Part shown: positions 1,625 to 32,300 of the stretch, piece by piece
Layout: every line of letters starts with the position of its first letter
How positions within the stretch are numbered: position 1 is the first letter of the stretch
Origin: an uncultured Roseburia sp.
GTDB lineage: Bacteria; Bacillota; Clostridia; Lachnospirales; Lachnospiraceae
Assembly (NCBI GenBank): GCA_947088675.1
Contig: CAMUHN010000027.1
Span: forward strand, 1-39,139
Length of the DNA: 39,139 bases
Direction of reading: 5' to 3'
Program-made: the position numbers and the translations under genes
Notes under the pieces: generated by a model
Databases searched by the model: none
Seen by the model: the letters and a program-made list of their open reading frames with translations, nothing else
Told to the model about the DNA's origin: nothing

Positions 1625-4600
1625 TTAGTTGGATTCAGTCAGATTAATCGCCGGAAGCTCTGTTGGAAGTTCTGCAGACAATGTATCGCTGACCATTCTC
1701 TGCCCCTCGTTTGTCAGTGCATTGTCCACACGATACAATTCAGCCCGCACTTTTGCCGGAAGCGCAATATTGTGCTGCGGCTCAATCCAATATATCCATC
1801 TTCCTTCCGATGTCTCTCCAAGCAGTGCATTTTCTGTTTCAGGCGCCAGAATAATCTGCTGTGCTACAAGATTTTGATTAGCGTCTACGCCACCGACAAC
1901 CTCTCCGTTTTCGTCATACAGTACCACCATGTTGTATGCCGGATTTCCTTTATAAGCGCCGGTAAATACAATTGATCCAGCCGGTATTTTTTCACCGCTA
2001 CTCTGCTCATATACATAATCGCTGCTCAATCTGCCGATACCTGTTACACCATTCTCTGAAGTCAGAAATTCCACATTATCTCCTGACGGGCCATACAGAT
2101 CCAGCTCGCTGACAGAAAGCTCTGTCCCTGCCTGCCCTACTGCCGTTAATTTTACGTAAGCTGCATCATATGTGCAAATCCAGGGATCTTTGCCGTTCTC
2201 AAAATATACGATTGAGCTGCCGTCCGTGAGTGTAAATTTACCTTCTTTGACACTGGTATATGTCTCTCCGTCCGCGCTGACCTCAATCTTATAATCCGAT
2301 ACAGACGTACCGCTGCCGCTGTTCACATAACGAAGCGCCGATACTTCTGTGGACTGATTTAACTCCAGTACAATACAGGGATCCTCTGCCTCTGTTTTAC
2401 CGGTAAATGTGGTTGTTTTATCATCGTCAATGATTCTGTCGGACGCTGCAACTTTACCCGTTTCACACGGCAGATCTTCCGTCGCGTCTACCGTTACGTC
2501 ATCCTCCGATACCATATTAGTAACAACATTCCAGAAAGATTTGTCCTGCAGTCCGTCTCCCTCCGCTTTCACTGCATCTGCGCGGAAGACAGCAGAACGG
2601 TTCATACATTTATCAATTGCCGTCACTTCATAAATGACAGCCCTGTTCGCAATTATACGGTCAGAGAATGTACCGTCCTGCGTAAATCCGGCAACTTCCT
2701 TTCTCTCTTCTCCAAATTCAGTATAAACGCGAACAATCTCGTAACCCTGAAGCGCTTCTTTATTTCCGGAAATATCCATAGTGAGTGTCACTTCACTTCC
2801 GCTCGCCAAAACCTGCGCAGACACCACGTTTTTGCCTGAAATATCCGTTTGTGTACCGTTTTCTATCTCATAGACTCTTGCCGCATCATCCACATAATAA
2901 ATAGCGCGCTCTTCTCTGTCAAACTGCCCCGCATATGCTTTTGTCTCTTCATCCGGCGTCATACCCCAACGTTCGAAGAATTCGAGTAAGTTGCGCTCTG
3001 CCGCCGCACTTGCCAGACGCATGATATTCTGGTCACGGTCAGAGGCCAGTGTCAGCCCAATATTTCCCGGTGCAGGAGCTGCCGCCGTATTTCTCGCATA
3101 ACTGTCCACTCTTGCGAAGAACAGATTCTGTGTAATCTCCTGATACGTATCATACGTCTTATAGTTATAGTCTCTGTCATATGCAAGATGGAGCTGCCAG
3201 TACATACCAAGCTGTGTAAATACATTATTCGCATATCCTTTTGTACCGGATGTTACTTTCTCAAATACATTCGGATATTTGAATCTTACAGTGTCATTGC
3301 TGTCTTTGGCCTGTGCCAGTACGGAAAAATAATTGTTTGTCACTTCGGCGTGCGCGTACGCGCCCTCATTCAGCACATGGCCAATCTCATGCGCAATACC
3401 CCAGCCAAAATAGCGGCCGCTGATATACTGTCCGTTTTCCGTCGAAACGACAGGAACGCTTCCCACCATTCCTTTTGTTTCATTCCACTCAATACCGATA
3501 TGGTTTCCGGAGGCATACATAAATGCGCCGGCAAACATTCTCATATAACGAATATTCTGGTAACGGTTCGGCAAATGATTCTTTTCTGTAACAGCTGCTT
3601 TTGTGCCCTCCGCAAACGAATTTGTCAAACCCTTATGCTGATAAAACAGTAGCAGCATATTTTCCATTGCAGTAATCGCATCTGCAAGTTTTGTCTCGCG
3701 ATTTTCTGCACCAAGCCCTGCAAGCACCTGACTGGCCGGAATGGAATACATCATCTGATCCATTACGATATCTGTTGAATTAGCAATACAGTTTTTCGCA
3801 TCGTAATCATATACTACATTCAGGTTTTGGCTGTTCTTATGCGCCTGTTCATGATTCTCCTGCAGACCGGCAACATAATCGTTTAATTCTGTCACATATG
3901 CGTTGATTTTTTCGGTGCGCTCTTCCCCTGTGACGCCATACACATTTAAAACAGGGTATTTCGTGCCACCGCTCACTCTGACTGCATACGCATCCTGCTC
4001 ATTGCTTCCGCCATACGAAACATAGAGGGCTCCTCCCTTTTCTCCTTCTGTCGAAGAGATCTTTGGAACCGTAATCTCATTTCTGCCGGCCTTTAATGCA
4101 GTACTTTTGAAAAATCCTCCGGACTCAGCGTGATACTGTGTAAATACAAGCTGCAGATCGGTAGCTTTTCCTGCCGGCATTCCCGGATAACCTACATATA
4201 CTACAATCTCCTCACCGGCTGCTGCCGCAACCCCCAGAGGCTGCCAGGCATTCAATCCTCCAACTGAAATTCCGGCATCTTTCTTTGCGGTGATCTTTGG
4301 ATTTACCGCAACAATATCATTCAGTCCAGGTGTTTCCAGAAGCTGTTTCGCCATATCCAGCTCTTTTTGAAGCGCCTCTTTTAACGGATGCAGCTCGCCG
4401 CTCACCGGATCCGGCGTCTCCAGCCGCTGCTGTAATTGCGCAATCACTTCAGCTGTTACATTATCTTTTAATACAATATGCAGATTATCCGCATACAGAT
4501 TCATAATATCCTGTTCTATACTGTCATACTCGTAAAAGCGAACCTCAGAAATTGTTACGCGCCGCGGAGAAGAACCATATCTTCCAACGCCAAACTGAAT

Positions 4601-6838
4601 TTTGGATGCATTTACAGGTTCGCTGAAACGAATCAGATAATACTTACGGCTGTCGCTTGTCTTCTGCTGGATCGACACATTCTTCGCCGCCTGTCTGTTA
4701 CCGTTTTCATCCCAGTAGAATACACTGGCAAAACTGTAAGAACCAATATCAACCGGCTCCGCAAACGCGATCATGCCAATCGAATATACCGCGTCAAATT
4801 CTGCAATCACGCCCTTTTCTGCTGCCGGATATGCACCGCCGTAATCCCAGTCTTCTCTCTGCAGAAATGACGTAAACTGATTGTCAAAAAGTCCAAGTCC
4901 GCTTCCGTTTTCCAAATCAAGAGGACTGTCAACCATAGATGCTCCGGGAACGGAAGCCGAAACAATATGACTGCTTACCGCACCCTCTCCATTGGAAGTG
5001 TTAATCAGTTTATACTCTGGAAGTTTTGCCGGGGTCATGCCGTCAAGCGTGATATCGGATGCGGTCAGCGAAGCCGGACCTTCTCCAATCTCGTTAGAAG
5101 CAGTTACATATACCAGATACTTCGTATAATCCGCAAGCCCCTCAATCTGGTGAGACAGTTCGGTTATATCAGATATCTTCTGAAACTCCTGCGCGCCATC
5201 TTTTTTGTAATAAACCGTATAAGTTTCTGCGTCCTCTGTCTCACTCCAGCTCACCGTAATACTGCGATATCCGCCAGTCACTCTGACTCTGTCGGGAGCA
5301 TCCGGTTTTTTACTCGCTTTCGGCGTTACCGTAATGGTATCCGAATATCCGCTGCGCCACTCACCGTTTAGCGACTGCACAGAAACTGTATATTCCGTAT
5401 TATTTTTCAGCTTATCCTTGTTAAACTGACTGACATTTAATGTAGTAACCGTTGTTCTGATATAATCAGTAATGCCATCATTTGAAATACAAACTTCGTA
5501 TCCGGTTACATTGCTCTCTCTGCTCCAGCTCAACACAAATTCTTTGTCTTTTGCAACTGCCGTCAGATTTTTCGGAATATTCATGACAGGCTCCGGAATC
5601 CGGCTCTCCATATCATTTAAAAATTCCACTTTTGTGATCTCTGCAAGATTCTTTCTATTTGATGTTGCGGTGATCGTAAGCGTAACCTTTTTTACGGCAA
5701 CCATTCTGCCCAGATCGATGCAGATCTCTCCGTTTTCACCTACTGTTACGCCGGACGGCGCGTCTGCTCTCAGCGAACTGTCCATGGCCTGACGCTGCGT
5801 CGAATCAATTCGGATTTTCTCCTCTTTTTCTCTGCCGTTTTCTTCATATATTACAGTGACATAACCCTCGGATACGGCATTTTCACTGCCTTTCGGCGTA
5901 GTAAATACAATGCCGTCCATGTCGGCCCTGCCTGACGCCGTAAAGTCGAAAGCCAGTTCAATCGGATTGGACTCGGAGATATCGCCGCCGTTAGCCGGCT
6001 TCAATACGACTCCGTCGCCTGTTCCGGAAAGCGATTCGATCCTTCCTTCCTCAATGACAGTGCCTTCTCCCTGACTGATCGTCGCCGCCTCAAACGGAAT
6101 ATATTTGATCGGCTGTGCCTCCTGCGGATTCATGCCATCCCGAAACTCAGTAAAATAATTTAAATCCAGCAAGTCAACTTTGCCGTCTCCGTTTAAGTCA
6201 CAGGGTCCTGACTGCTGTTTTGCCTCAATCGCATCGGCGATCAGAGCTGCATCAGCATCGTCAAGAACGCCGTCTCCGTTCACATCGCCTTTCATCAGAA
6301 GCCCTCGCTGTGCGCCTCCTGTCCCGGAAATGTTTCCCGTACTCAATTCCACACGATACAGAAGTCCCTGCACGGAAATATTCTGCGTATAATTCAGATA
6401 ACCGTCTCCAACCACAGTAAGTACATACTCGCCGTCCGCAAGATCCGGAAAACTTGCCAGCACTCTCGGCGCCGACATTTCATCACTGCCCTGCGTTTTC
6501 AGCACCACATTTCGTACTGACACCGGCTGATCCTGCCCTTCCTCTTTTAAAGTCACAGTAAACGCCGATGACGACTGCAGCGGTATTCCGGCAGTAATAA
6601 AGATCTCCACCGCTCCTTTTACCGCTTTTGACATATTGTCTGCCTGATCCGCCGCATTGGAATCAGGAGACTGTCTGGCCGGAAACGCATCATACCCCTC
6701 CAATGAAAATGAATTGTCTGTTTCCTGCATCCAGTCTTCACGCACAGTGTTCTGCGCCGAAACCGGATGGGTTCCGGAGGTAAAAACAACTGCGGCAGCA
6801 AGTATGCCTGCAAAAAATCTGGAAAATTTGTTTTTCAT
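1625..6838 (-). CDS. secreted M60-family metallopeptidase with dockerin-like, FN3 and F5/8C-like domains
   Basis: A 1737-residue secreted zinc peptidase of the M60/enhancin (gluzincin) family, many of which cleave mucins and other O-glycoproteins. I start at 6838 (MKNKFSRFF), which follows GGAAAGG and opens a clear signal peptide ending near VSA/QN; the upstream extension has neither. Domains in order: dockerin-like pair of calcium loops at about 183-232 (DVNGDGVLDD and DLNGDGKVDL); a beta-rich region; two FN3 domains (about 413-600); a discoidin-like region (about 610-780); the M60 catalytic domain (about 855-1290) with HEIGH at 1150-1154, the acidic third ligand probably in the following NEGAYAHAE stretch; and an F5/8-type C (CBM32-like) domain at about 1434-1586. 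No wall anchor is visible, so retention may depend on the dockerin. The cohesin-like gene follows on the same strand. Substrate is inferred from the family. Confidence 0.88.
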   Translation of the reverse strand: MKNKFSRFFAGILAAAVVFTSGTHPVSAQNTVREDWMQETDNSFSLEGYDAFPARQSPDSNAADQADNMSKAVKGAVEIFITAGIPLQSSSAFTVTLKEEGQDQPVSVRNVVLKTQGSDEMSAPRVLASFPDLADGEYVLTVVGDGYLNYTQNISVQGLLYRVELSTGNISGTGGAQRGLLMKGDVNGDGVLDDADAALIADAIEAKQQSGPCDLNGDGKVDLLDLNYFTEFRDGMNPQEAQPIKYIPFEAATISQGEGTVIEEGRIESLSGTGDGVVLKPANGGDISESNPIELAFDFTASGRADMDGIVFTTPKGSENAVSEGYVTVIYEENGREKEEKIRIDSTQRQAMDSSLRADAPSGVTVGENGEICIDLGRMVAVKKVTLTITATSNRKNLAEITKVEFLNDMESRIPEPVMNIPKNLTAVAKDKEFVLSWSRESNVTGYEVCISNDGITDYIRTTVTTLNVSQFNKDKLKNNTEYTVSVQSLNGEWRSGYSDTITVTPKASKKPDAPDRVRVTGGYRSITVSWSETEDAETYTVYYKKDGAQEFQKISDITELSHQIEGLADYTKYLVYVTASNEIGEGPASLTASDITLDGMTPAKLPEYKLINTSNGEGAVSSHIVSASVPGASMVDSPLDLENGSGLGLFDNQFTSFLQREDWDYGGAYPAAEKGVIAEFDAVYSIGMIAFAEPVDIGSYSFASVFYWDENGNRQAAKNVSIQQKTSDSRKYYLIRFSEPVNASKIQFGVGRYGSSPRRVTISEVRFYEYDSIEQDIMNLYADNLHIVLKDNVTAEVIAQLQQRLETPDPVSGELHPLKEALQKELDMAKQLLETPGLNDIVAVNPKITAKKDAGISVGGLNAWQPLGVAAAAGEEIVVYVGYPGMPAGKATDLQLVFTQYHAESGGFFKSTALKAGRNEITVPKISSTEGEKGGALYVSYGGSNEQDAYAVRVSGGTKYPVLNVYGVTGEERTEKINAYVTELNDYVAGLQENHEQAHKNSQNLNVVYDYDAKNCIANSTDIVMDQMMYSIPASQVLAGLGAENRETKLADAITAMENMLLLFYQHKGLTNSFAEGTKAAVTEKNHLPNRYQNIRYMRMFAGAFMYASGNHIGIEWNETKGMVGSVPVVSTENGQYISGRYFGWGIAHEIGHVLNEGAYAHAEVTNNYFSVLAQAKDSNDTVRFKYPNVFEKVTSGTKGYANNVFTQLGMYWQLHLAYDRDYNYKTYDTYQEITQNLFFARVDSYARNTAAAPAPGNIGLTLASDRDQNIMRLASAAAERNLLEFFERWGMTPDEETKAYAGQFDREERAIYYVDDAARVYEIENGTQTDISGKNVVSAQVLASGSEVTLTMDISGNKEALQGYEIVRVYTEFGEERKEVAGFTQDGTFSDRIIANRAVIYEVTAIDKCMNRSAVFRADAVKAEGDGLQDKSFWNVVTNMVSEDDVTVDATEDLPCETGKVAASDRIIDDDKTTTFTGKTEAEDPCIVLELNQSTEVSALRYVNSGSGTSVSDYKIEVSADGETYTSVKEGKFTLTDGSSIVYFENGKDPWICTYDAAYVKLTAVGQAGTELSVSELDLYGPSGDNVEFLTSENGVTGIGRLSSDYVYEQSSGEKIPAGSIVFTGAYKGNPAYNMVVLYDENGEVVGGVDANQNLVAQQIILAPETENALLGETSEGRWIYWIEPQHNIALPAKVRAELYRVDNALTNEGQRMVSDTLSAELPTELPAINLTESN

Positions 6839-6967
6839 AAGTATCCTTTCCGCATCTGCAACAGACATATCAAATATGACTGCCTGCAATGCTAAATTTT
6901 TATGAGCCGCACCGGCCTGCAGATTTCTTCGCTGGTGCTGCCACAAAAAACAATAGAGTTTGCACCA

Positions 6968-11556: not shown

Positions 11557-12480
11557 TTATTTCATAATCTGTTTTGCTGATTCCCGAAACACCCTTGCAA
11601 AATACGCTTCATCCGACAAGGAAGAATCTGTATAATATGTATCCGCATTTGTCAGGAAAACTTCCCTTGCGTCATCATCGATAATGACGGATGCCTCAGT
11701 TCCTGTATAAAGGTAAGTGATATATTCCGATGCGGCATACTCCATAAATACAAAGATCATATGCCCCTCATCCTGATACATCGCATTATATTTTTCTTCA
11801 AGATAACTCTCCGCTTCTTCATCTGTAATCTCTTCTCCTTTTCCATTGAGACGATCACAGATATACAAATAAGGCTGCACACCTGTCTTCTCATAAAACT
11901 CTTCCATTGCCTGTTTTACGGTATCAGTGTCCGAAAGCCAGTGCAGATCATCCTGTATCACCTGCTCCGTTCGCAGGCATTTTTCAGCGGCCAGTTTTTC
12001 CCTTGCTGTTTGTTTTTCCGCTTTTCCGTTATCCTCTGCACGTCTGTTATCGTCCGGAACAATTACCTGCTCCAGGTCTCTTACAAAATTCTGAACCTTT
12101 TCTGACCGAAGGGAAGCAAAAAATGCCGCCAGGATAACTGCCAACAGAAAAACAATCAGAAAAAAATTACCGCAGCAGCCTCTTCCTGCCCTCTGCCCTC
12201 CATAACCGCCCGGCGGCGGACCCCACGATCTGCGCGGCGGTGGCGAATCCCACGACCTGCGCGGCGGCGGTGGATTCCGTGGCGCCGACGAACCCCACGA
12301 CCCTCGCGGCGGCGATGGATTCCGTGGCGCCGACGATTTGCGATGTGACGAAAGCGATCCCATGCTGCCGCCTGATGACGTCTTTCTCCCCGAAGAACCG
12401 CCCGCTGATGACCTGTGGCTGGAAAATCCCCTGCCCTCTCTGCCGGGTTTTCCGCCTGCTGCTCCTCCACCTCTTCCCAT
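11557..12480 (-). CDS. membrane protein with low-complexity head and TPM-like domain
   Basis: A 307-residue protein in three parts. Residues 1-100 are low complexity (Gly, Ser, Pro, Arg) and include a 15-residue repeat. Residues about 105-123 form one transmembrane segment. Residues about 165-307 resemble the TPM_phosphatase fold: FYEKTGVQPYLYICD, then DEGHMIFVFME, YLYTGTEASVIID and a final helix. TPM domains occur in thylakoid and bacterial membrane proteins, some with phosphatase activity; here no activity can be assigned. With the basic head inside, the TPM part would be extracytoplasmic. An AGGAGG lies six to seven bases before the ATG, at the very end of the DUF1287 gene, only 12 bases away, so the two genes are surely cotranscribed. 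Confidence 0.7.
   Translation of the reverse strand: MGRGGGAAGGKPGREGRGFSSHRSSAGGSSGRKTSSGGSMGSLSSHRKSSAPRNPSPPRGSWGSSAPRNPPPPRRSWDSPPPRRSWGPPPGGYGGQRAGRGCCGNFFLIVFLLAVILAAFFASLRSEKVQNFVRDLEQVIVPDDNRRAEDNGKAEKQTAREKLAAEKCLRTEQVIQDDLHWLSDTDTVKQAMEEFYEKTGVQPYLYICDRLNGKGEEITDEEAESYLEEKYNAMYQDEGHMIFVFMEYAASEYITYLYTGTEASVIIDDDAREVFLTNADTYYTDSSLSDEAYFARVFRESAKQIMK
12211..12333 (-). repeat. 45-base in-frame tandem repeat
   Basis: Two full copies and one partial copy of a 45-base unit encode SAPRNPSPPRGSWGS, SAPRNPPPPRRSWDS and PPPRRSWGPPP (residues about 50-90 of the TPM-like protein). The block TGGATTCCGTGGCGCCGACG recurs exactly at 12271 and 12316. The region is a GC-rich minisatellite that could change length by slippage without breaking the frame. 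Confidence 0.85.
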
Positions 12481-13312: not shown

Positions 13313-13347
13313 GAAAAAAATTTCACGACGGAATGGAGGGGAATTGT

Positions 13348-14454
13348 TTGAAATCTCAAAACTTTAGAAAGTATTTCCTCGCTGCTTTTGCCATATTTGC
13401 ACTCTTTTCCCCCTTATACAGATTGCAGGCGGAAGAAAAATTCAGAGCAGACGATAAAACTGTGCGTTCCCAATATATGGAATACCAAAAACGCCTGACT
13501 GCCGTAAAATCTTCGTCTGATCTTGCACAATATGGTTTTTCACCGATTGAAGACCAGACTTTCTCTTTTGAAATGGATGAATACAAAGATGTAACCATGA
13601 TCCCCGCACTGGACCGTACCTGGCACAGACTGATTCTGTTTTTTTCGGACAATACAGATCAAATTATATACTATACAGATCAGCTGGCGGCAAATAACTA
13701 CAATATTGGGCAAATGGAACAGCCCTGCCGCGGAATTGCCGCCGTTTCATTTCGGGACTTGAATAAAGACGGCTTCCTCGATATCATCCTGATCGCCTCC
13801 TGTGTAAACAGAGAAGGTCCTGCATCGGGCGCACCCTATAAGGCTGGGGACGTGCTGTTTGGCAATGGCCATGAATTTTACCGCGATTACAGGATTTCGG
13901 ACAAAATCAACCGTTTTGGAATGAACCAGAGTACGGAAGTGATTACCGCATTTGTACGGGACAGCTGTTCGACGGAATTTTTATATACATCCTCAACTTT
14001 AACTGATCTGTATGCCGGCGGTTTTTTGGTACATCAGGAACAGTGTTACGACAGATCATTCGAAAAATTCGGCACTTTACAGGTGGTGCCCGGAACCTAC
14101 CGTATCTCTGATTATGATATTTTTATGATATTTCTGGCAGACCGGCAGGGAAATATCGTATCGGTACTCCAGCCGATGGGCGATTACGAAAGCCTGTACT
14201 CGCTCACGGGAATCAACTGCCGGGATATTGACGGAGACGGGCTGAAAGACATCGTGATTCTGGCAAAATACAATTATGAAGATACAGACGGACAGACGCT
14301 TACCGCAAGCGACTATGCTGTCTATTATCAGCGAATTGCCGGCTTTGCGGCAGATACGGATATGAAAATCAGCTACCGTATCGATGACAATACAACCATG
14401 GAGGAATTGGTAAAACATGCGAGAGCTTACTGGGGGTGGAAATCTGAAAAATGA
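13348..14454 (+). CDS. secreted FG-GAP/VCBS-like protein linked to a two-component system
   Basis: A 368-residue exported protein. I start at TTG 13348 because GGAGGGG lies six bases upstream; the in-frame ATG at 13333 overlaps that ribosome site. Residues 1-28 are a signal peptide ending near LQA/EE. The body has two calcium-loop-like strands of the FG-GAP/VCBS type, FRDLNKDGFLDIILIAS and CRDIDGDGLKDIVILAK, suggesting a beta-propeller-like fold. No catalytic motif is seen. Its stop overlaps the start of the response regulator gene (ATGA), so the proteins are made together. I infer an extracytoplasmic accessory or sensory role for the kinase; the ligand is unknown. Confidence 0.75.
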   Translation: MKSQNFRKYFLAAFAIFALFSPLYRLQAEEKFRADDKTVRSQYMEYQKRLTAVKSSSDLAQYGFSPIEDQTFSFEMDEYKDVTMIPALDRTWHRLILFFSDNTDQIIYYTDQLAANNYNIGQMEQPCRGIAAVSFRDLNKDGFLDIILIASCVNREGPASGAPYKAGDVLFGNGHEFYRDYRISDKINRFGMNQSTEVITAFVRDSCSTEFLYTSSTLTDLYAGGFLVHQEQCYDRSFEKFGTLQVVPGTYRISDYDIFMIFLADRQGNIVSVLQPMGDYESLYSLTGINCRDIDGDGLKDIVILAKYNYEDTDGQTLTASDYAVYYQRIAGFAADTDMKISYRIDDNTTMEELVKHARAYWGWKSEK

Positions 14455-15107
14455 CAAAAATACTGATTGTTGACGACGAAAAACCGATTTGCGATCTGAT
14501 TGACCTGAATCTGTCTTCCGCCGGTTATCACTGCACAAGCGCACTTGACGGGTTATCAGCGCTTGATATGATAGAAAAAGAAAATTATGATTTAATTTTG
14601 CTTGATATCATGCTACCGGGAGCAAGCGGCTATGATATCATGGAATACATACGTCCGCTGGAAATTCCGGTTATCTTCGTCACTGCGAAGCATGAAGTAA
14701 AAGACCGGGTGAAAGGGTTAAAGCTTGGCGCCGATGATTATCTGGTGAAACCGTTTGATGTAATCGAACTTACGGCACGTGTCGAGGCCGTACTGCGGCG
14801 TTATAACAAGGTGGAGCAGAAGCTGACCGCAGGTGATGTTACAGCAGATCTGGACGCGCATAAAGTGACGAAAGCCGGAAAGCAGATTGAACTGACAAAC
14901 AAGGAATTTGGCCTTTTGGTACTCTTTATGAAAAATAAAAATGTCGCCCTGTTCCGTGAAACACTGTATGAAAAAGTCTGGGAAGAAGAATACTACGGGG
15001 ACAGCCGCACACTGGATCTGCATGTGCAGCGCTTACGCAAAAAACTTGGCTGGGAAAAATGTCTTGTCGCCGTCTACAAAGTCGGGTATCGTCTGGAATT
15101 ACCCTGA
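14451..15107 (+). CDS. OmpR/PhoB-family response regulator
   Basis: A 218-residue DNA-binding response regulator. The receiver domain (1-115) has the acidic pair D8/D9, phospho-acceptor D52 in LLDIMLPG, T79 and K100 (YLVKP). The C-terminal winged helix (about 122-218) has the family pattern LTNKEFGLLVLFM, then SRTLDLHVQRLRKKL and VGYRLE. The start overlaps the stop of the upstream gene by four bases, and the kinase gene follows after 21 bases. OmpR-family regulators bind head-to-tail sites about 11 bases apart; an array of exactly that spacing lies at 17352-17417, before the amidase/deacetylase gene, and is the best candidate target in the window. Confidence 0.95.
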   Translation: MTKILIVDDEKPICDLIDLNLSSAGYHCTSALDGLSALDMIEKENYDLILLDIMLPGASGYDIMEYIRPLEIPVIFVTAKHEVKDRVKGLKLGADDYLVKPFDVIELTARVEAVLRRYNKVEQKLTAGDVTADLDAHKVTKAGKQIELTNKEFGLLVLFMKNKNVALFRETLYEKVWEEEYYGDSRTLDLHVQRLRKKLGWEKCLVAVYKVGYRLELP

Positions 15108-15128
15108 TTTTCAAGAAGAAAGGAACTT

Positions 15129-16535
15129 ATGAAATTTTCATTTAAAATTCTGCTCTGCATGTTAATGGTCATGGCGCTCGCACTCGGCTTCAGTGGTTTT
15201 TACTTTGTCAACCATGTCTTTGAATCCTCGCTGGAACGGGAAATCGGACAATCGCTTGACGAGAGCAGTATTCTTGGCTTCGCACTCGAAACGGCGGCTT
15301 TAAATGTGCCGTCCAAATACCGCATTCTGCCGGACCATACGATTGACGAGATTGCGGCAAAACTGGAAGCAGGCGGCGCGCAGGGGAAACGGCTTCTGCG
15401 CATCTCGGACGAAGAAAAAAACGTGCTCTATGCCAGCGACGGCTTTGATGCGGACGAAAAACTTCTGGCATTGACCGACAAATCAATCAAGTCATACCAT
15501 ATTATGGCCGTTTCCGATCAGCACTATATCCATACCGTAACGGCAGTCACCGCATTAAACCGCGTTTTATATCTGGAGACACTGCGCAATGTCTCGGATG
15601 TTTTTACGGAACGCGCCCTGGGTTTCTCCCTGTACCGCCGTGTAACTGTCCTGATGCTGCTCGCCGGCGCACTGATTATGCACCTGATCTGTTCTGTGCT
15701 GACCAAACCGATCCGCATCCTCACACAGGCCACAAGAAAGATGGAAGAGAAAGATTACTCTTACCGTGCAAAACAGGTCAGTCAGGATGAACTCGGGCAG
15801 CTGACGCAGGACTTCAATCATATGGCCGAAACTCTCGAACAAAATATTGTAAAACTGGAAGACGAAATTAATGCAAAGGAAGAATTTATGGGCGCTTTCG
15901 CCCATGAACTGAAAACCCCGCTTACAACAATGATCGGCTATGCCGACCTTCTGCGTTCCAGAAAACTCGACACGGAAAAACACCTGATGGCCGCCAATTA
16001 TATCTATACGGAGGGAAAACGCTTAGAAGCGATGTCGCTGCGTCTTTTGGATATCATCGTCGCCGGAAAAAAAGAAGCCAGACTGTCCTTAATTCCGACA
16101 GAGCTGATCTTTGACTATCTTGCGGAACTCTACGCAGACAGAACGGATCTTATTTTTCTTTTTGAATATGAAAAGCAGAACGTACTGGCTGAATTAAATC
16201 TGCTTAAAACCGTGCTGATTAATCTGATCGACAATGCTGCCAAAGCATCCGATTCCGGCGGTGCGATTGAGATTAATGGCGTTCAGACAAAAAACGGATA
16301 TCGATTCTGCGTGAAAGATCATGGCATTGGTATTCCCGAAGACGAACTGCATAAAATTACGAAAGCGTTTTACATGGTCGACAAATCCCGCTCGCGCCAG
16401 AACAACGGCGCCGGGCTTGGTCTCGCACTTTGTTCACAAATTTTAAACATACACGGCAGTTCTCTCCTGATCGAGAGTGAACCGGGCAAAGGCTCCTGCT
16501 TTTCTTTCCTGTTAAACAATGCGGAGGAATCATGA
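15129..16535 (+). CDS. sensor histidine kinase
   Basis: A 468-residue membrane kinase, the partner of the response regulator. Two transmembrane segments (about 6-28 and 171-191) bracket an extracytoplasmic region of about 140 residues. A HAMP linker follows (about 190-242), then the dimerisation/phosphoacceptor helix with H259 in FAHELKTPLTTMIGY. The ATPase domain has the N box (LINLIDNAAKA), G1 (DHGIGIP) and G2 (GAGLGLAL). AGAAAGGAAC precedes the ATG. The stop overlaps the next start (ATGA). All catalytic motifs are intact. The signal is unknown, but the downstream cell-wall enzyme suggests envelope state or a cell-wall-directed compound (inference). Confidence 0.95.
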   Translation: MKFSFKILLCMLMVMALALGFSGFYFVNHVFESSLEREIGQSLDESSILGFALETAALNVPSKYRILPDHTIDEIAAKLEAGGAQGKRLLRISDEEKNVLYASDGFDADEKLLALTDKSIKSYHIMAVSDQHYIHTVTAVTALNRVLYLETLRNVSDVFTERALGFSLYRRVTVLMLLAGALIMHLICSVLTKPIRILTQATRKMEEKDYSYRAKQVSQDELGQLTQDFNHMAETLEQNIVKLEDEINAKEEFMGAFAHELKTPLTTMIGYADLLRSRKLDTEKHLMAANYIYTEGKRLEAMSLRLLDIIVAGKKEARLSLIPTELIFDYLAELYADRTDLIFLFEYEKQNVLAELNLLKTVLINLIDNAAKASDSGGAIEINGVQTKNGYRFCVKDHGIGIPEDELHKITKAFYMVDKSRSRQNNGAGLGLALCSQILNIHGSSLLIESEPGKGSCFSFLLNNAEES

Positions 16536-17359
16536 AACAAAAAACAAAAACGGCTCTTTTTATCGGCATAGCAGCGTTTACCGCCATCCTGTCTGTCTGG
16601 GGACCGGAATCTCTTGCAAAATACCAGGACCGCGGACGCTTTCAGCAAATCTATACCGAAACGGCAAATACTTCCCAGGCCGGCTACCTGTATAAACTCG
16701 GGGCGGATGAAAAGCTTACTATCCTGTCGCGCTGCTTAAACAGCCAGACACGCCCGGAAAGCGAGCAGCACAGCTTAACGCATCCCGACAATTCCAATAT
16801 TTACCCCGAATCAGACGGCTCCTACGCTTTCGTGGCAAACTACAGAAATCCTTACGATCAGGAGATTTCGGACGACAAAATCTATGATAAATGCAACGAT
16901 GCGCTCTCACAGTTAAAGGCCGTCGGCATACTTCCTGACGATGTCATGGAAATGGATGCCTCCTCCTATGATGCCACGCTCTATTCTGCAATCGACGTTT
17001 TGGAACCGCGCAACAACATTGCTGTCTGGATGCTGAATTTAAAAAGCAGCCCCAAAAATACGGCTAAGGAAAACCGCCTGATGGATGTCTGCATGGATGC
17101 TGAGGACGGAAAAATCTACGAATTTTTTGTGCGCACCTCACTGCTGTGGGAAGATATTGACACAGACCGGATAATGGAAAAATGGGCGCGCTATATGGGT
17201 CTTGACAGTCCTGCCCCCTATGAATCAGACAATCCTCTTCTGGAATCCACTCCATATTTCAAAAAATATGTTTTTTCCGGAGCAGGCGGCGAATCTACGA
17301 TTGTTACAATCGGCTATTATGAGGGAATTAACGAACTTTTTTTAAAAATATCCCGATGA
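16532..17359 (+). CDS. signal-anchored extracytoplasmic protein of the two-component operon, function unknown
   Basis: A 275-residue protein with one N-terminal hydrophobic segment (about 7-25) serving as signal or anchor; the remainder is soluble and mostly acidic. I recognise no family. RLMDVCMDAEDGKIYEFFV reads like a strand-turn-strand of a small alpha/beta domain, and two cysteines in the mature part (C120 and C190 by approximate count) might pair. GGAGG lies five bases before the ATG, within the kinase 3' end, and the start overlaps the kinase stop. It is the last gene of the four-gene operon; the stop lies in the first unit of the 11-base repeat array. By position it may modulate the kinase or act with the FG-GAP-like protein (inference). 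Confidence 0.7.
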   Translation: MKQKTKTALFIGIAAFTAILSVWGPESLAKYQDRGRFQQIYTETANTSQAGYLYKLGADEKLTILSRCLNSQTRPESEQHSLTHPDNSNIYPESDGSYAFVANYRNPYDQEISDDKIYDKCNDALSQLKAVGILPDDVMEMDASSYDATLYSAIDVLEPRNNIAVWMLNLKSSPKNTAKENRLMDVCMDAEDGKIYEFFVRTSLLWEDIDTDRIMEKWARYMGLDSPAPYESDNPLLESTPYFKKYVFSGAGGESTIVTIGYYEGINELFLKISR

Positions 17360-17417
17360 TGCAACTTTGATGCAACTTTGATGCCCTTTTGATGCAGAAA
17401 TGATGATGTTTTGATGC
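17352..17417 (+). promoter_or_regulatory. array of six 11-base direct repeats, probable response-regulator operator
   Basis: Six consecutive 11-base units end in GATGC (once GATGA): cccgatgatgc, aactttgatgc twice, ccttttgatgc, agaaatgatga, tgttttgatgc. One unit per helical turn is the spacing used by OmpR/PhoB-family regulators, and such a regulator is encoded at 14451-15107. The array ends 10 bases before a -10-like TATGAT (17428-17433); the expected -35 position (17405-17410) falls within the last units and lacks a consensus, as in activator-dependent promoters. The first unit includes the stop codon of the preceding gene. Confidence 0.75.
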
Positions 17418-17418
17418 A

Positions 17419-17463
17419 CCTCTTGTGTATGATGTCAGGCAACACAAGAGGTCTTTATTTTTA
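17419..17463 (+). terminator. terminator of the two-component operon
   Basis: A perfect 10-base inverted repeat CCTCTTGTGT / ACACAAGAGG (17419-17428 with 17442-17451) with a 13-base loop, followed by TCTTTATTTTT. It stands about 60 bases after the last stop of the operon. The -10-like element of the next promoter begins at the base of the loop, so the two signals are superimposed. Confidence 0.75.
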
Positions 17464-17483
17464 ACTTCAGGAGGAACTTCATC

Positions 17484-18941
17484 ATGTACGAAGGAAGATC
17501 ATATTCTGCCGGGCGCAGCATGTATCTCTATCAAATCAGACAAAAAAAGACAAAAAAAAGACGCCGCATCACTGCCGCTGTCATCGCGTCCTTTTTGCTT
17601 GGATCCGTTTTCTTTTCCGCCCCCAATACGCCGCCCATACAGGTTCATGCATCCGACGAACAGCTTTCCGCCGATCCCTCAAATGAGGCGCCGGATTCTG
17701 CGGATCAATTGGTTTCAAACCTTACAAATGAGCCGGCTTCCCAGGATTCTGACTCCAAAACTGCCGTGCTGCCGGACACTTCATCCGATGAAGCGGGCAC
17801 AAAGAATCCTGTCATCTTTATAGATCCCGGACACGGCGGTACAGACGAGGGCTGTGCATTTTCCGGCGTTCAGGAGAAAACCGTAAACCTTGCCATTGCG
17901 CAGCTTCTGCAAAAACGCCTGTGTGAACTCGGCTGCACTGTGATCCTTTCACGCAGCGACGACAGCTATATTGCCAAAGAAGACCGGGTGATCCTTGCCA
18001 ACGATGCAGACGCAGACCTGTATGTCAGCATCCATCAAAATTCCTCGGAAGACGCTTCCGTAAACGGATTGGAAGTCTGGTATGACGGTGCGGACACAAG
18101 CCGCAATAACCGCAGGCTTGCCGCGCTGATCAACCGTCAGACATTACTTTGCACCGGCGCAAAAAAACGGGAAATGCACAGTGATGCAGATTTTCATGTT
18201 ACAGGCAGCACCAGAATGCCCGCCTGTCTGATTGAGACAGGTTTTCTGTCAAATGCCGCAGAACGCCGTAAATTAACCGATTACGGATATCAGGCGCAGA
18301 TTGCCGATGGCATTGCAGCCGGTATTTCTATGTATCTCAACCCAAAAACAATGTACCTGACATTTGACGACGGGCCTTCCGCTGAAAACACAGTCAGAGT
18401 TTTGGATATTTTAAAGCGGCGAAATATCAAAGCTACCTTTTTTCTGATCGGGGAAAATGTGCAAAAACACCCGGAGATTGCACGGCGCATTGCAGCAGAA
18501 GGACATACAATCGGAATACACTGCAATGTACATGACTATAAAATGCTCTACCGGAGCGTGGACAGTTACATACAGGATTTTGAGACGGCACACCGTATCG
18601 TATATGAAACAACCGGAATCGACACGAAGCTGTTTCGGTTTCCGGGCGGCAGTATCAATGCATATAATGAAAATGTGAAAGACGCTATCATACAGGAAAT
18701 GAACGCGCGCGGCTATGTCTATTTTGACTGGAATGCAAGCCTTGAGGATGCGCTCGGCGACTCCACCCCCGAACAGCTGATTGCAAACGGTGTGGATACG
18801 ACGCTGGGAAGAAAAAACGTAATTCTTCTTGCGCATGATGTCGTTTACAATACAGGAATCTGTCTGGATGAATTGTTGGATGAACTTGCCGAATATGAAA
18901 TGCTGCCGTTAAACGAGCATGTGGCGCCGATTTGCTTTTAG
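17484..18941 (+). CDS. fusion of N-acetylmuramoyl-L-alanine amidase and polysaccharide deacetylase
   Basis: A 485-residue exported cell-wall enzyme with two catalytic domains. After a basic start and a hydrophobic segment (about 29-46) comes a Ser/Asp/Pro-rich linker. Residues about 109-287 are an Amidase_3 domain with zinc ligands H117 (DPGHGG), E131 and H184 (SIHQN), and catalytic E251 (CLIETGFLSN); it would cut the bond between muramic acid and the stem peptide. Residues about 289-480 are a NodB deacetylase with TFDDGPS (D295/D296), H346 and H350, RFPGG (385-389) and H451; it would remove acetyl groups from glycan-strand amino sugars. Both active sites are complete. GGAGGAAC lies nine bases before the ATG. 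The 11-base repeat array just upstream suggests control by the adjacent two-component system. Confidence 0.93.
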   Translation: MYEGRSYSAGRSMYLYQIRQKKTKKRRRITAAVIASFLLGSVFFSAPNTPPIQVHASDEQLSADPSNEAPDSADQLVSNLTNEPASQDSDSKTAVLPDTSSDEAGTKNPVIFIDPGHGGTDEGCAFSGVQEKTVNLAIAQLLQKRLCELGCTVILSRSDDSYIAKEDRVILANDADADLYVSIHQNSSEDASVNGLEVWYDGADTSRNNRRLAALINRQTLLCTGAKKREMHSDADFHVTGSTRMPACLIETGFLSNAAERRKLTDYGYQAQIADGIAAGISMYLNPKTMYLTFDDGPSAENTVRVLDILKRRNIKATFFLIGENVQKHPEIARRIAAEGHTIGIHCNVHDYKMLYRSVDSYIQDFETAHRIVYETTGIDTKLFRFPGGSINAYNENVKDAIIQEMNARGYVYFDWNASLEDALGDSTPEQLIANGVDTTLGRKNVILLAHDVVYNTGICLDELLDELAEYEMLPLNEHVAPICF

Positions 18942-26597: not shown

Positions 26598-29321
26598 TTG
26601 AACAGATATCAAAATGTACCGCTTGTTGCGGACTGGATTACAGGAAAAAAATCGGGACACGGCATGGGCGAAAACATTATCGCGCCAGAAGGGGCCGCTT
26701 ATGGCGTGGATCCAAAACTGACCGACGTTTCGGAATTAAAGGTGCATTATACATACGACGAAAATTATCCGAAACAGACATCCCATTTTGTACTGTGGTA
26801 TAAGACGGGGGCATATTTAAAAAGCGCGGACGGAGCAAACAACAGCATTTATGCGAGAGACGGCGCGGACTGGGAACGGCAGGCGCTGCCAATCGGGAAC
26901 GGTTATATGGGCGGTATGCTGTTCGGGCTTCCCGATAAAGACCAGATCCAGATTAATGAGGAAACGTTCTGGGCGGCAGGATACCGCGGCATACAGGAGA
27001 AAGTGAAACCCGATACGGTAAACGAAAATATGAGCGAGTGCATCAACGGATTTATGAGCGTGGGAAATTTATTTGTAGATTTCCATATGCCGAAAAATGC
27101 GGCGGTTCATAATTACTGCCGTGATCTGAATCTCGAAGAATCAGTTGCCCATGTGCAGTACGAATATAACGGCGTGCGCTATCGACGGGAGTATTTTGCC
27201 TCTTATCCGAGAGAAACACTTGTGCTGCGCTACATGGCCGACTGCAATGCGCTTAACTTTGAAGTATCTCCTGTGTCGATGCACCCGGGCGAAATTACCG
27301 TCAGAGACGGGGAGATTACAATTACAGGAAAATTAAAGGATTCCGAGCCGTATGTATCCTGCGGCAATGTGACATGGTCGCAGGAATCCGATCTGGAATA
27401 CTGTACAAAGATCAAAGTGATTCCGGATGACGGAGAGGTGACGGATGAATTTAACAGTGTCAGCGTACGCGGGGCGAGCGGCGTTACCATTCTGGTCGCA
27501 GCCGCTACCGATTACGATCCGCACCAGTTTGTTCAAAAGGCTGACGGGCGCGTCGACTTTTCGCAGACTCCGTATAAAAACAGCAGGGGTGCGGCCGCAG
27601 CAGTCGAAAAGGCGTCGGCAAGAATAGAAAAAGCGATGAACCTGCGTTATCCGGAATTAAAGGCGGAACATACCGCCGATTACAGGGAACAGTTTGATGC
27701 GGTATCATTTTTCCTGACCGAACCGGATCAGATCTGCCCGATACCGACCGATGAACTGCAGCAGACTTATCGCAGGGCAATACGCATGGACAAAAGAGAC
27801 GACAATACGACCGTGGTTTCTTATGATCCGCGCGAATATGAAAATCTTGACCGTCATCTGGAGGAGCTTCATTTTCAGTATGCAAGATACCTGCTGATTT
27901 CTTCGTCCCGGGCAAAAACGCTGCCGTCGACGCTGCAGGGAAAATGGTGCCAGTCTACGGCAGAAATCTGGGGTTCCTGCTACTGTATTAATATCAATAT
28001 GGAAATGAATTACTGGTTTGCAGGCGGGGCGGGTCTTTTTGACAGTGCAAAAGCGCTGCTGCCATGGTTTCGCGCGCAGATTCCTGCAGGGCGCGTAACC
28101 GCTGCAAACATGTACGGCGTTACGCCAAAATCCTATCGCTGTACAGACGGCAAAATTGTATTTTCCGATTCAAAGAGAGACGAAGACGATGTATTTCTGA
28201 TGCATACCAAACAGGCTATTATGGGCACAACCGACATGACCGGTTCTGCCTGTATACAGTCGGCGGGCAACACGGCGTGGCTGATGTATAATCTCTGGGA
28301 TGTCTATCAGACGAGCGCCGATAAAGATCTGCTTGGCAATGAAATCTATCCGATTATACGGAAAGCGGCAAATTTTTATACGCAGTACCTTTATAAACAT
28401 CAGCGACGGACAACCGATGATCTGCACAGCTATCCGGACGGATACTACTATACCACATGGAGCGGATGTTCCCCGGAACACGGACCGAAGCAGGAGGGAA
28501 TCAAATATGATTTGCAGCTTGTGGCAGGGATGTATGACTATGTGATTATGGCATCTGAAATTCTTCAAACAGATCCGGAAAAAAGGGCGGTCTGGAGAGA
28601 AATTCGAACGCATCTTAAGGCTCCGGTCGAACTGGGTGCGGACGGGCAGATCAAAGAGTGGGAACAGGAAATGCGCTACAATACGGATAAAGACGGGAAT
28701 GCGCTTGGAGAAGCGGCGCATCGCCACATCTCTCATCTTGTCGGTCTTTATCCGGGAACTTTGATTACAAGAGAGCAGCCGGAATTTTTAGAGGGGGCAA
28801 AAATTGTATTGAGGAACCGGGGAGACGACGCGACAGGATGGTCCTGTTCCAATAAATTTCTGCTGTGGAGCAGGGCGCTAAACGGCGACAAGGCGCTGGA
28901 ACTGTTTCGCTACCAGCTTGCGCAAAAAACATATGCCAATCTTTTTGATACGCACGCGCCGTTTCAGATCGACGGAAATTTTGGTTCCGCGGCAGGCGTG
29001 ATGGAACTTCTGATGCAGTCGCAGACAGGGCCCATTTATATTCTGCCGGCGCTCCCGTCTGTCTGGGAGAAAGGCCAGATAAACGGGATACGGGCAAAAA
29101 ACGGCGCAGAGGTTTCGATTCAATGGAACGGCGGCAAAGCAGAAAAAATAGAGATTACGCCGGCAGCGGACGGAGATCTTGCAGTCGGTTATGAAAAGGA
29201 AAACCGAACATTTTCACTGGACGGTTCCCCGGCAGTGTTTGGCGATAACGGAATTTATACGATTGAAAACGCAAAAGCAGGGCGGACCTATACATTTCTC
29301 GCAGAAAGGAGCGGAAAATGA
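26598..29321 (+). CDS. GH95 alpha-L-fucosidase, no signal peptide
   Basis: A 907-residue glycoside hydrolase of family GH95, inverting enzymes that mostly cut alpha-1,2-fucose from host glycans and milk oligosaccharides. The start is TTG at 26598 after an AAAGGGGGCGG stretch; no ATG is available in this frame. Family marks: EQQALPIGNGYMGG-type opening (here WERQALPIGNGYMGG), QIQINEETFWAAG, CININMEMNYW with N465/N467, SPEHG with E627, and QIDGNFG with D792. By the Bifidobacterium AfcA precedent these are the asparagines, general acid and aspartate of the active site. It has no signal peptide and starts exactly where homology to the secreted paralogue (29318-34318) begins, so it probably acts in the cytoplasm on imported oligosaccharides. 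Its stop overlaps the next start (ATGA). Confidence 0.93.
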   Translation: MNRYQNVPLVADWITGKKSGHGMGENIIAPEGAAYGVDPKLTDVSELKVHYTYDENYPKQTSHFVLWYKTGAYLKSADGANNSIYARDGADWERQALPIGNGYMGGMLFGLPDKDQIQINEETFWAAGYRGIQEKVKPDTVNENMSECINGFMSVGNLFVDFHMPKNAAVHNYCRDLNLEESVAHVQYEYNGVRYRREYFASYPRETLVLRYMADCNALNFEVSPVSMHPGEITVRDGEITITGKLKDSEPYVSCGNVTWSQESDLEYCTKIKVIPDDGEVTDEFNSVSVRGASGVTILVAAATDYDPHQFVQKADGRVDFSQTPYKNSRGAAAAVEKASARIEKAMNLRYPELKAEHTADYREQFDAVSFFLTEPDQICPIPTDELQQTYRRAIRMDKRDDNTTVVSYDPREYENLDRHLEELHFQYARYLLISSSRAKTLPSTLQGKWCQSTAEIWGSCYCININMEMNYWFAGGAGLFDSAKALLPWFRAQIPAGRVTAANMYGVTPKSYRCTDGKIVFSDSKRDEDDVFLMHTKQAIMGTTDMTGSACIQSAGNTAWLMYNLWDVYQTSADKDLLGNEIYPIIRKAANFYTQYLYKHQRRTTDDLHSYPDGYYYTTWSGCSPEHGPKQEGIKYDLQLVAGMYDYVIMASEILQTDPEKRAVWREIRTHLKAPVELGADGQIKEWEQEMRYNTDKDGNALGEAAHRHISHLVGLYPGTLITREQPEFLEGAKIVLRNRGDDATGWSCSNKFLLWSRALNGDKALELFRYQLAQKTYANLFDTHAPFQIDGNFGSAAGVMELLMQSQTGPIYILPALPSVWEKGQINGIRAKNGAEVSIQWNGGKAEKIEITPAADGDLAVGYEKENRTFSLDGSPAVFGDNGIYTIENAKAGRTYTFLAERSGK

Positions 29322-32300
29322 AAAAAAGAAAAAAATTTGTTTCGTGGTTATTGACGGCCTCCATCCTCTGCGCGTCGTTTGGCGCGATTCCTGCCGAAGC
29401 GGCGGAAACCTTTTCGGCGCAAAGCGGGAGCGCCGGGCGGCAAAACGGCGCAGAGGGAAATGAGGAAAATAAGAAAGAAACAAAGACGTCTGCCGAAAAC
29501 GCACTTTATACGTTTGGCGGCAGTTTCAACCAGATCAAGGAATTTAATACTTCCCCGCTTTCAGAGACAAACGCGGGCGATACAGGGCTTACTGTATTGA
29601 CGGAGAGTTCCAATTATAACAATGTCGCGGTTATGGATGCGCAGACAAAGACGGGCACAGGGTATTATCCGCTGGGGAACAATCTTGCGGACAACGGTTT
29701 TTATCTGTTCTTTGGCTCGGGTGGAAACGGCGATGTGCGCGCGACGATTAAATTCGATCAACCCGTTGCAGCCGGCCAATACATAAAGGTTACATACGCA
29801 AAGCCGACGTCGACAAATAACGGCAGTACAAACAGAAGCGCCGGCAATGCCAATACCATGACAATAGGCTCGGAAGTCATAGACGTTGAGGATATCTGCG
29901 CATTTGACAAATGGTACGCCACCACGGTGAGGACAGCGGCAAAAGTAACTCAAATTGATATTAAGCTTGGCAAATGGAGTTCAACTGCTATTTCAAAAAT
30001 TGAGATTCTGGACAGTGCGGATGTACTTGAGATTACCGCAAAAGACGGTATCACGGAAAAATATATTATGCCCGAAATTCAGACGGTACAATACAGTGCA
30101 AACGTTTATAACAGCATTACGACGGAACTGGATTGCACAGAAATCGTTGCAAAAGGAACGGCGGATGAAACCGCTCAGATTACCTATTCCGTAAACGGTT
30201 ACAGCGGCGTGTCCATAAACGGAGACGGTCTTTTGTCTGTTACGCCTGACGCTGCGGCCGGAATGGTTACGATTCTGGCAGAATACAAAGAAATAAAAGC
30301 CTCGGTTTCCTTACTGCTCAAAGAACCGGGCAGCGCGGCGGCAGTTGAGATATATGGCGACGAGGTTGTGACGGAAGGAACGGCAAAGTATAAGGCTATC
30401 CCCGTTTCGGACGGCGCCACGCTGCCGGCCCGCAATACGCGCTGGGAAATTATCGGCGACACAAACGGCACGGACATCAGTCAGGACGGCCTTTTGACCG
30501 TTTCCAAAAACGCAGAGCCGGGCGTAATCAGAATCAGGGCGACGCTTATGGTATCGGATATTCAGAATATGGAAATATCCTCCGAGTTTGCCGTAACGAT
30601 ACGGCAGGACGGTTCCGTACCGTGCCCCCTGAAAATAAAAGGTCTGCTTTTTCAGGACGGCGCGACGGATATTACTAAGGCGGCCGGCACAGACGGCATC
30701 ATCATCGAAAAGACCGGCGATCTGACCGGCGAATATGATGTGACAGTAAAGATTTTTGACCGGAACGACAGACTGGTCGGAGAGAAAACAGATTCTGTCA
30801 GCGCGCTGCCGAAGGGAGTTTCCAGCCATGATTTTACAATGGCGTTTCCGAAAGCGGCGTCTGCAAAAGTTTATATTACAGATAAAGAGACAGGCGCCGT
30901 TGTATCGGACCGCGTATTTCTGACGGAAAAAGGGGAGTATTCCAATCTGCCGCTTGTCGCCGACTGGATCACGGGGGAGAAATCGGGACTTGGCATGGGC
31001 GCGGGCATCATCGCGCCTGATACGGACGCGGCTCCCTGCGGAGTCGATCCGTCTGTAACCGATATTTCCACCTTAAATGTAACGTATGAATACGGGGACG
31101 ATTACAGAGGCGCGGAAGAAGACAATGTGCTCTGGTATAAAACAGGCGCATTTCTTGCAAGCGCAAACGGTTCGAATAACAGCATTTACGCGCGCGACAG
31201 CGCAGACTGGGAGCAGCAGGCTCTGCCCATCGGAAACGGTTACATGGGCGGAATGCTGTTCGGGCTTGCGGACAAAGACCAGATCCAGATAAACGAGGAA
31301 ACGTTCTGGGCGGCCGGATACCGGGGAACACAGACGCAGGTTGCTCCGGATACAGTCAATCAAAATATGAGCGAGGGGATCAACGGTTTTATGAGCGTCG
31401 GAAATATCTTTGTGGATTTCCATATGCCGCGGGGCGCGACTGTAAAGAATTATTACCGCGACCTCAATCTGAATGAGGCCGTCGCGCATGTCCGCTATGA
31501 ATATGACGGCAAAAGCTACGCGCGGGAATATCTGGCGAGTTATCCAAAAGAGGTGCTGGCATTCCGCTATACCGGCGATGAACTTACATTTGATGTTAAG
31601 CCTGTGCTGATGCACCCTGGCAAAGTAACGGTCCGAAACGGAGAAATTAAAATCACTGGAAAGTTAAAGGACAGCGAGCCGTATTCGTCAGGCGGCAATG
31701 CGGCGTGGAACCAGGAATCGGATCTGGAATACTGTGCGATCGTAAAAGTGATCGCAGACGACGGGACGCTTTTGGACGGTTATAATACGGTAAGCGTGGA
31801 AGGCAGTACGGGCGTCACCATTCTTGTAGCGGCGGCGACAGATTATGACAAAGATCAGTTTACCTTAAACAGCGACGGCAGCGTAAATATGGAAAAAACG
31901 CCGTACAAAAGTGAAAGAGGGGTTCTGGCCGCAATTGAAAAAGCAGAAAACAGAATGAACGGCGCGTCATCCATAAGCTATGAGGATTTAAAGGCGGAAC
32001 ATATCGCCGATTATAAATCCCAGTTTGATTCGGTTTCGTTTACCCTGACAGACGAGGAAGAAATCTGCAGCATACCTACGGATGAGCTGCAGGATTCCTA
32101 TAAGAAAGTTGTCGGCGCAAGGCAGACGGATGGAAAAACAGTCGTTTCCTATGACAGGGCAGCTTACGCAGACCTTGACAGACATCTGGAGGAGCTTCAC
32201 TATAACTATGCAAGGTATATGATGATATCCTCCTCGCGTTCCAAAACGATGCCTGCGACGCTGCAGGGAAAATGGTGCCAGTCTACAGCGGAAATCTGGG

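Follow-up and report, generated by a model that had tools for sequence, protein, structure and literature searches.

The DNA examined here is a stretch of 39,139 nucleotides (nt) from an uncultured Roseburia sp. of the family Lachnospiraceae (GenBank assembly GCA_947088675.1, contig CAMUHN010000027.1), referred to as the window throughout. It carries a conserved run of four genes (13333-17359), which includes those for an OmpR/PhoB-type response regulator of 218 amino acids (aa) and a sensor histidine kinase, followed by a gene encoding a fusion of Amidase_3 and Polysacc_deac_1 domains (17484-18941). Between the run and the amidase/deacetylase gene, at 17355-17420, lie six contiguous head-to-tail units of 11 base pairs (bp), 66 bp in total, which are a strong candidate for an operator of the regulator (Table 1).

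Table 1 Features of the repeat-array locus in the window
Position	Strand	Feature	Basis
13333..14454	+	First gene of the conserved run, encoding 373 aa with FG-GAP-like repeats; 4-bp overlap with the regulator gene	Domain scan
14451..15107	+	Response regulator of the OmpR/PhoB family, 218 aa, Response_reg + Trans_reg_C	Pfam
15129..16535	+	Sensor histidine kinase, 468 aa, HAMP + HisKA + HATPase_c	Pfam
16532..17359	+	275-aa protein, family unassigned, N-terminal hydrophobic stretch; stop codon inside repeat unit 1	Sequence, domain scans
17355..17420	+	Array of six 11-bp direct repeats (consensus WWTGATGCAAN), the predicted operator for the 218-aa regulator	Sequence, shuffles, conservation, regulator co-occurrence
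17418..17465	+	Intrinsic terminator predicted for the upstream operon; inverted repeat 17418-17428 / 17442-17452, then CTTTATTTTT	Inverted-repeat search, RNA fold
17428..17433	+	TATGAT, predicted -10 element, its first base exactly 18 bp from that of unit 6; no -35 hexamer	Sequence; conserved spacing
17469..17474	+	AGGAGG, ribosome-binding site of the amidase/deacetylase gene	Sequence
17484..18941	+	Exported fusion, 485 aa, Amidase_3 (CwlD-like) + polysaccharide deacetylase; predicted target	Pfam, NCBIfam

The units read, in order, GATGATGCAAC, TTTGATGCAAC, TTTGATGCCCT, TTTGATGCAGA, AATGATGATGT and TTTGATGCACC. TGATGC is present in five of the six, unit 5 having TGATGA; of the original prediction, which described six 11-base units ending in GATGC within 66 bases, the number and length of the units hold, while the ending shared by all of them does not, since unit 5 carries GATGA. 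Matches to TGATGC summed over six phased units gave a score of 35 out of 36, compared with a maximum of 24 and a mean of 21.4 in 100 dinucleotide-preserving shuffles (whole window, both strands), a difference that excludes chance as the origin of the array. Compared with itself, the 66-bp segment showed peaks at lag 11 (36) and lag 22 (30). The array begins within the upstream gene, with the TGA of unit 1 (17357-17359) serving as the stop codon of the 275-aa gene. No Rfam family was found in the window at the gathering threshold, which points to no known RNA element.

The distance between the end of the array and TATGAT is 7 bp, and no -35 hexamer was detected upstream of this element. The same geometry was analyzed in 115 non-identical arrays, which include orthologous groups and were taken from the window, from 27 of the 28 clostridial loci (L031 omitted) among the 48 stretches that a scan of named genomes for the exact pattern returned, and from L098-L104 and L235-L314. 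With the last unit taken mechanically, TAnnnT was located exactly 18 bp from its first base in 110 of the 115 arrays, and any other offset between 8 and 33 was represented at most 12 times. The two bases directly 5' of TAnnnT were mostly TG (T 74%, G 70%), and the best match to TTGACA at a spacer of 16-18 was 1/6 in 10 arrays, 2/6 in 78, 3/6 in 25 and 4/6 in 2. The constant spacing and the poor TTGACA matches support the -35-less promoter proposed earlier and, with the last unit fixed at 18 bp ahead of TAnnnT, place this unit where a -35 box would otherwise be.

This arrangement bears on the direction of control. The array could be an operator from which the regulator represses, by covering the -35 region and blocking polymerase; operators of this protein family can act in this way, as described for some genes under Streptomyces PhoP (PMC4415409), and a direct repeat across the -35 region suits either sign of control. 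Against repression stand the best -35 match, mostly 2/6 or 3/6 among the 115 arrays, and the exact distance of the last unit from the -10, because a -35-less promoter with a fixed upstream site fits what activation needs. We regard repression as improbable.

The arrays likewise argue against the repeats being a chance minisatellite, or acting as curved DNA or as RNA instead of as protein-binding sites. Slippage generates tandem repeats, and the non-clostridial matches (e.g. Algoriphagus, Paraburkholderia) as well as L031 resemble its products. In the profile of the 115 arrays, however, the spacer bases vary between units while TGATGC stays constant, defining a half-site TGATGCA; in the named-genome scan alone, the TAnnnT at +18 was found in 23 of 28 clostridial but in just 1 of 20 other stretches; and the arrays co-occur with one regulator, as described below. 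An origin or function of this kind is highly improbable.

Most arrays have four or six units. Anchored on the -10, with the last unit picked to favour TAnnnT at +18, the 115 arrays comprised 70 with four units, 30 with six, three with eight, three with two, four with three and five with five; at a stricter unit threshold the counts were 7 (two units), 12 (three), 67 (four), 5 (five), 22 (six) and 2 (eight). Arrays of two units are under-sampled, since the pattern used to find the arrays needs three. The predominance of four and six units suggests whole-dimer steps. Within this system an array of six is not unusually long, as had been assumed: four is the commonest number, six the second, and eight is found. 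The expectation of usually two or three sites was too narrow and the principle is known, as complex operators with four or more 11-nt units are described for Streptomyces PhoP (PMC6283541).

At the home locus the array is conserved. An orthologue of the 218-aa regulator (E<1e-100, 72-100% identity) was identified in 10 of 60 genomes of the genus, and phased units separate the 275-aa gene from the amidase gene in all nine that could be read across the interval (the window, L010, L036, L098, L099, L100, L102, L103 and L104), those of L098 being degenerate (31/36); the tenth genome, G047, has the orthologue on a 3.9-kb contig and lies outside the interval count. In a wider set of 25 array-associated amidase/deacetylase-like genes, two of which (L269 and L294) encode other proteins of about 340 aa, there were six units in 17 cases, four in seven and five in one. 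The original prediction had named the absence of phased repeats in relatives as grounds for its rejection; the repeats are present, and their conservation upstream of the amidase/deacetylase gene supports the choice of this gene as the target.

The -10 also lies within a predicted terminator that spans it, a feature additional to those recorded originally. The inverted repeat is perfect, with 11 bp per arm, and holds the -10 in its 5' arm and loop. Folding of the RNA gave -16.8 kcal/mol (z -3.2), a value equalled by one of 200 shuffles. The hairpin spanning the -10 was found by the inverted-repeat search and not listed by a pattern-based terminator scan, for which the loop limit was 8. By eye, seven of the 25 amidase/deacetylase rows (window, L010, L271, L288, L291, L301 and L311) have a T-rich tail behind a stem that covers the -10.

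The 218-aa protein possesses the receiver and winged-helix domains of the OmpR/PhoB family (PF00072 at 9.1e-29 and PF00486 at 4.2e-22), in line with the earlier statement that the array follows an operon of this type, and is the sole DNA-binding protein that Pfam recognises in the conserved four-gene run. Its nearest solved chains are RegX3, MtrA and PhoP, and its closest NCBIfam models are PhoB, YycF and MtrA; it scores below the curated cut-off of all of the best 25 models listed. Links between arrays and this regulator were observed well beyond the home locus. The strict pattern WTGATGCN3WWTGATGCN3WWTGATG was matched in 7 of the 60 genomes of the genus, all seven being among the 10 orthologue genomes (Fisher 3e-7), and in 9 of 299 genomes of the family (298 genera; ten first-look candidates were scored per genome), where it marks 8 of 11 genomes with an orthologue (E<=1e-105) compared with 1 of 288 others (p 1e-12). 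The reversed pattern was found in 0 of the 60 genomes of the genus and in 0 of the 299 of the family. The ninth genome of the family, G072, has its array directly upstream of the gene for a 60%-identical paralogue. In four of the nine, an array lies on a contig different from that of the orthologue (G160:C44, G307:C32, G317:C29, G343:C8). Among 43 genomes of the named-genome scan that were searched for the regulator, an orthologue (E<=6e-107) was present in 24 of 27 clostridial array genomes and in 0 of 16 others (best 7e-69). Moreover, for 20 of these 24 the array through which the genome entered the analysis lies in a fetched locus (8 kb or less) free of operon genes, so that shared inheritance of the operon is no explanation. 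Tracking of the orthologue by the arrays corroborates the earlier assignment of the neighbouring OmpR/PhoB-type system as the regulator.

Several genomes carry multiple sites. With up to one mismatch, at least 19 were counted in G363, at least 14 in G387, at least 11 in G388, at least 9 in G385, at least 7 in G383 and at least 6 each in G386, G394 and G396; the reversed pattern gave none in all 40 genomes of this site-count scan. The genes downstream of arrays mostly encode exported proteins: a crude score detected a lipobox or an N-terminal hydrophobic stretch in 96 of 110 of their products, compared with 68 of 174 products of other genes at the same loci. Amidase/deacetylases form the largest downstream cluster (25 members). 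In the fusion encoded in the window, CwlD is the best NCBIfam model for the Amidase_3 part (131 bits against a cut-off of 221.6), and the deacetylase part is PgdA/PdaB/PdaA-like, with every model under its cut-off. The second commonest targets are VIT-VWA proteins, a cluster of 15, with the VIT domain confirmed by Pfam in all seven that were scanned. Other families among scanned representatives comprise a sulfatase-domain membrane protein and LysM, leucine-rich-repeat, GDSL lipase, Amidase_2 and RHS proteins; further downstream genes include a PdaC-like one (weak, below cut-off) and many without any family. The best reading is that the arrays mark an envelope regulon of an OmpR/PhoB-type system, of which the amidase/deacetylase would be the target at the home locus. 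As an observation apart, L018:4580-7336 belongs with the VIT-VWA targets, and one VIT-VWA protein has an exosortase-like domain.

Regulators of 50-70% identity to that of the window have the helix RTLDLHVQRLRKKL, which we take to be the recognition helix, or close variants of it, nearly identical to the helix of the window regulator. Two phased TGATGC-like units (>=11/12) were found within 250 bp upstream of their own genes in 9 of 36 such regulators (letter shuffles, 0.05), in 0 of 8 regulators below 50% identity, which have other helices, and in 0 of 44 orthologues of at least 70% identity, where the regulator is not the first gene. At the paralogue loci L105-L117, L141-L155, L181 and L182, two phased TGATGC/TGATAC units often lie about 45-190 bp ahead of the gene, which suggests that the 50-70% group autoregulates through the same half-site. 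In the regulator tree the orthologue clade is free of other sequences but has weak support (0.175), and the regulator rows count some genomes twice (G343 and G368, for example, contribute one and the same place); the identity classes were relied on for these reasons, rather than the tree.

A number of observations weigh against the link between regulator, array and regulon. The genomes are related, and the p-values for co-occurrence consequently overstate it. Only a more distant paralogue is present in the clostridial array genomes G361 and G379, and neither orthologue nor paralogue in the array genome G378 (L031). Conversely, 3 of the 11 orthologue genomes of the family lack the strict pattern even at one mismatch, L315 and L316 showing degenerate phased remnants and L317 none, and the home interval of G317 (L321) is also without an array. 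Ahead of the 373-aa gene, two phased units were found in 0 of 28 loci at >=11/12 and in 2 of 28 at >=10/12; this speaks against classical autoregulation, and the system appears not to control its own operon. No second array was found in the genome of the window, so that a regulon is not demonstrated for that genome. Finally, 14 of the 110 genes downstream of arrays are not exported, the exceptions including two regulators (L012, L313) and DNA polymerase III delta (L309).

The paralogues raise the question of whether a different protein, such as one of these OmpR-family regulators, binds the array, the link to the operon reflecting shared ancestry only. Their very similar recognition helix and apparent use of the same half-site would allow it, as would G361 and G379, where such a paralogue is the only candidate. 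This explanation is, however, at odds with the presence of a strict array in just 1 (G072) of 56 family genomes that have a distant regulator only (E 1e-70 to 1e-95), with the co-occurrence of the orthologue and arrays distant from its operon, and with the 218-aa protein being the one DNA-binding protein recognised in the run; we give it a low probability.

Judged from sequence comparisons, the six repeats very probably form the operator for the 218-aa regulator, whose gene lies three genes upstream and which would activate the amidase/deacetylase gene at a -35-less promoter. That the regulator binds the tandem 11-bp repeats we infer from their geometry and co-occurrence, both of which fit; phosphorylation, activation as the direction of control, dimer steps, cooperativity and the steepness of the switch are likewise presumed. 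The kinase, perhaps with the exported 275-aa protein, for which neither Pfam nor NCBIfam gave a match, and the exported 373-aa protein, would sense an envelope condition. The phosphorylated regulator would then fill the array head to tail, one protomer per 11-bp unit, and six units would accommodate three tandem dimers, the last of which would take the place of the -35 box and touch RNA polymerase at the adjacent -10, thereby switching on the amidase/deacetylase gene. The terminator, with the -10 in its stem, would halt read-through from the sensor operon and so make the amidase gene dependent on the array promoter alone, while a new transcript starting near 17440, in the terminator loop, would contain the 3' arm alone and avoid being terminated. 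Operators of the same type, mostly with four or six units, would precede other genes for envelope or exported proteins in Lachnospiraceae that have an orthologous regulator.

CwlD and PdaA jointly produce the muramic delta-lactam of the spore cortex. A more far-reaching proposal, which we consider possible though rather doubtful as a whole, is that of a Lachnospiraceae envelope regulon whose operators come in dimer quanta (four, six or eight sites) at one distance from a -35-less -10, with the number of sites setting the threshold and steepness of the response. Such a regulon may have expanded from the single promoter of some Roseburia-like genomes to the 19 or more of a relative, and the fused CwlD-like amidase and deacetylase of the home locus could serve to remodel the vegetative wall through a chemistry otherwise belonging to the spore cortex, namely that of muramic delta-lactam. 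The operator reading, if right, would define the regulator, operator code and targets of an envelope response in Lachnospiraceae, a major family of gut bacteria. With natural operators of four, six and eight units all equally far from the -10, the effect of site number on threshold and steepness for an OmpR/PhoB-type regulator would become testable, and the array pattern would allow targets to be predicted directly from the sequence of unstudied gut genomes. Regulation of a CwlD-like amidase/deacetylase fusion outside sporulation would be notable given the role of CwlD and PdaA in the cortex.

Elsewhere in the window, two adjoining genes at 26598-34318 encode glycoside hydrolases of family 95 (907 and 1666 aa; Pfam), the larger with fn3 and with proline-rich 18-bp repeats at 33656-33759. 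On the reverse strand, 1625-6946 encodes a 1773-aa protein with fn3, dockerin, M60 peptidase and F5/8 type C domains, likely a surface protein acting on mucin or glycoprotein. GC-rich tandem repeats of 27 and 45 bp at 12211-12336 lie inside an open frame on the same strand (11557-12480) for which no Pfam match was found.

Searches of the open-licence literature gave no description of this combination of regulator, operator and target, and as far as these searches go, novelty extends to the TGATGCA half-site, to the group of regulators, to the strict 4/6 architecture and to the set of envelope genes. Individual traits do recur in known systems. WalR/WalK (YycF/YycG) is likewise an OmpR-family system with a cell-wall hydrolase target, and WalK is the best NCBIfam model for the kinase and YycF the second best for the regulator; both nevertheless score far under the cut-offs (174.1 against 725 bits and 192.5 against 340 bits, respectively), and the WalR motif, TGTWAH-N5-TGTWAH, differs from the TGATGC of the array. 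The regulator also stays under the cut-off for VanR of VanRS (181.7 against 350 bits for the VanR-ABDEGLN model). In the spa-box or nis-box of SpaR and NisR, 6 nt separate two copies of (A/T)TGAT, and every adjoining pair of the six units here reads (A/T)TGAT N6 (A/T)TGAT; in contrast to these two-unit boxes, the arrays have 4-8 units, and the Pfam scans of the neighbours, which used no models aimed at lantibiotic biosynthesis or immunity genes, named none of them. The PhoP box of Bacillus subtilis needs four TTAACA-like repeats in a phase of about 11 bp, i.e. two dimers, which is close to the four-unit norm of the arrays, although the half-site differs.

The closest parallels in architecture are the boxes of PhoB and PhoP. 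The PhoB box sits near the -10 in place of the -35. PHO boxes are sums of 11-nt direct-repeat units with seven conserved and four less conserved nt (PMC4415409), and in E. coli and Streptomyces such head-to-tail units, like those described here, bind tandem DNA-binding domains (PMC4415409, PMC6283541). The half-site, however, is TGATGCA here and CTGTCAT or GTTCACC there (PMC4415409); the regulator falls short of the PhoB models (199.5 against 296.2 bits and 190.1 against 270 bits); and the targets are envelope genes, with a unit number of mostly four or six. PhoP of Mycobacterium tuberculosis recognizes a 7-bp motif with a 4-bp spacer as a highly cooperative tandem dimer, and its binding to three or four successive motifs, present at some promoters, is tighter than to two (PMC4832192). 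Although PhoP ranks with the closest solved relatives of the 218-aa protein, the half-site and the targets are different, and arrays of six and eight units are a regular feature of the system described here.
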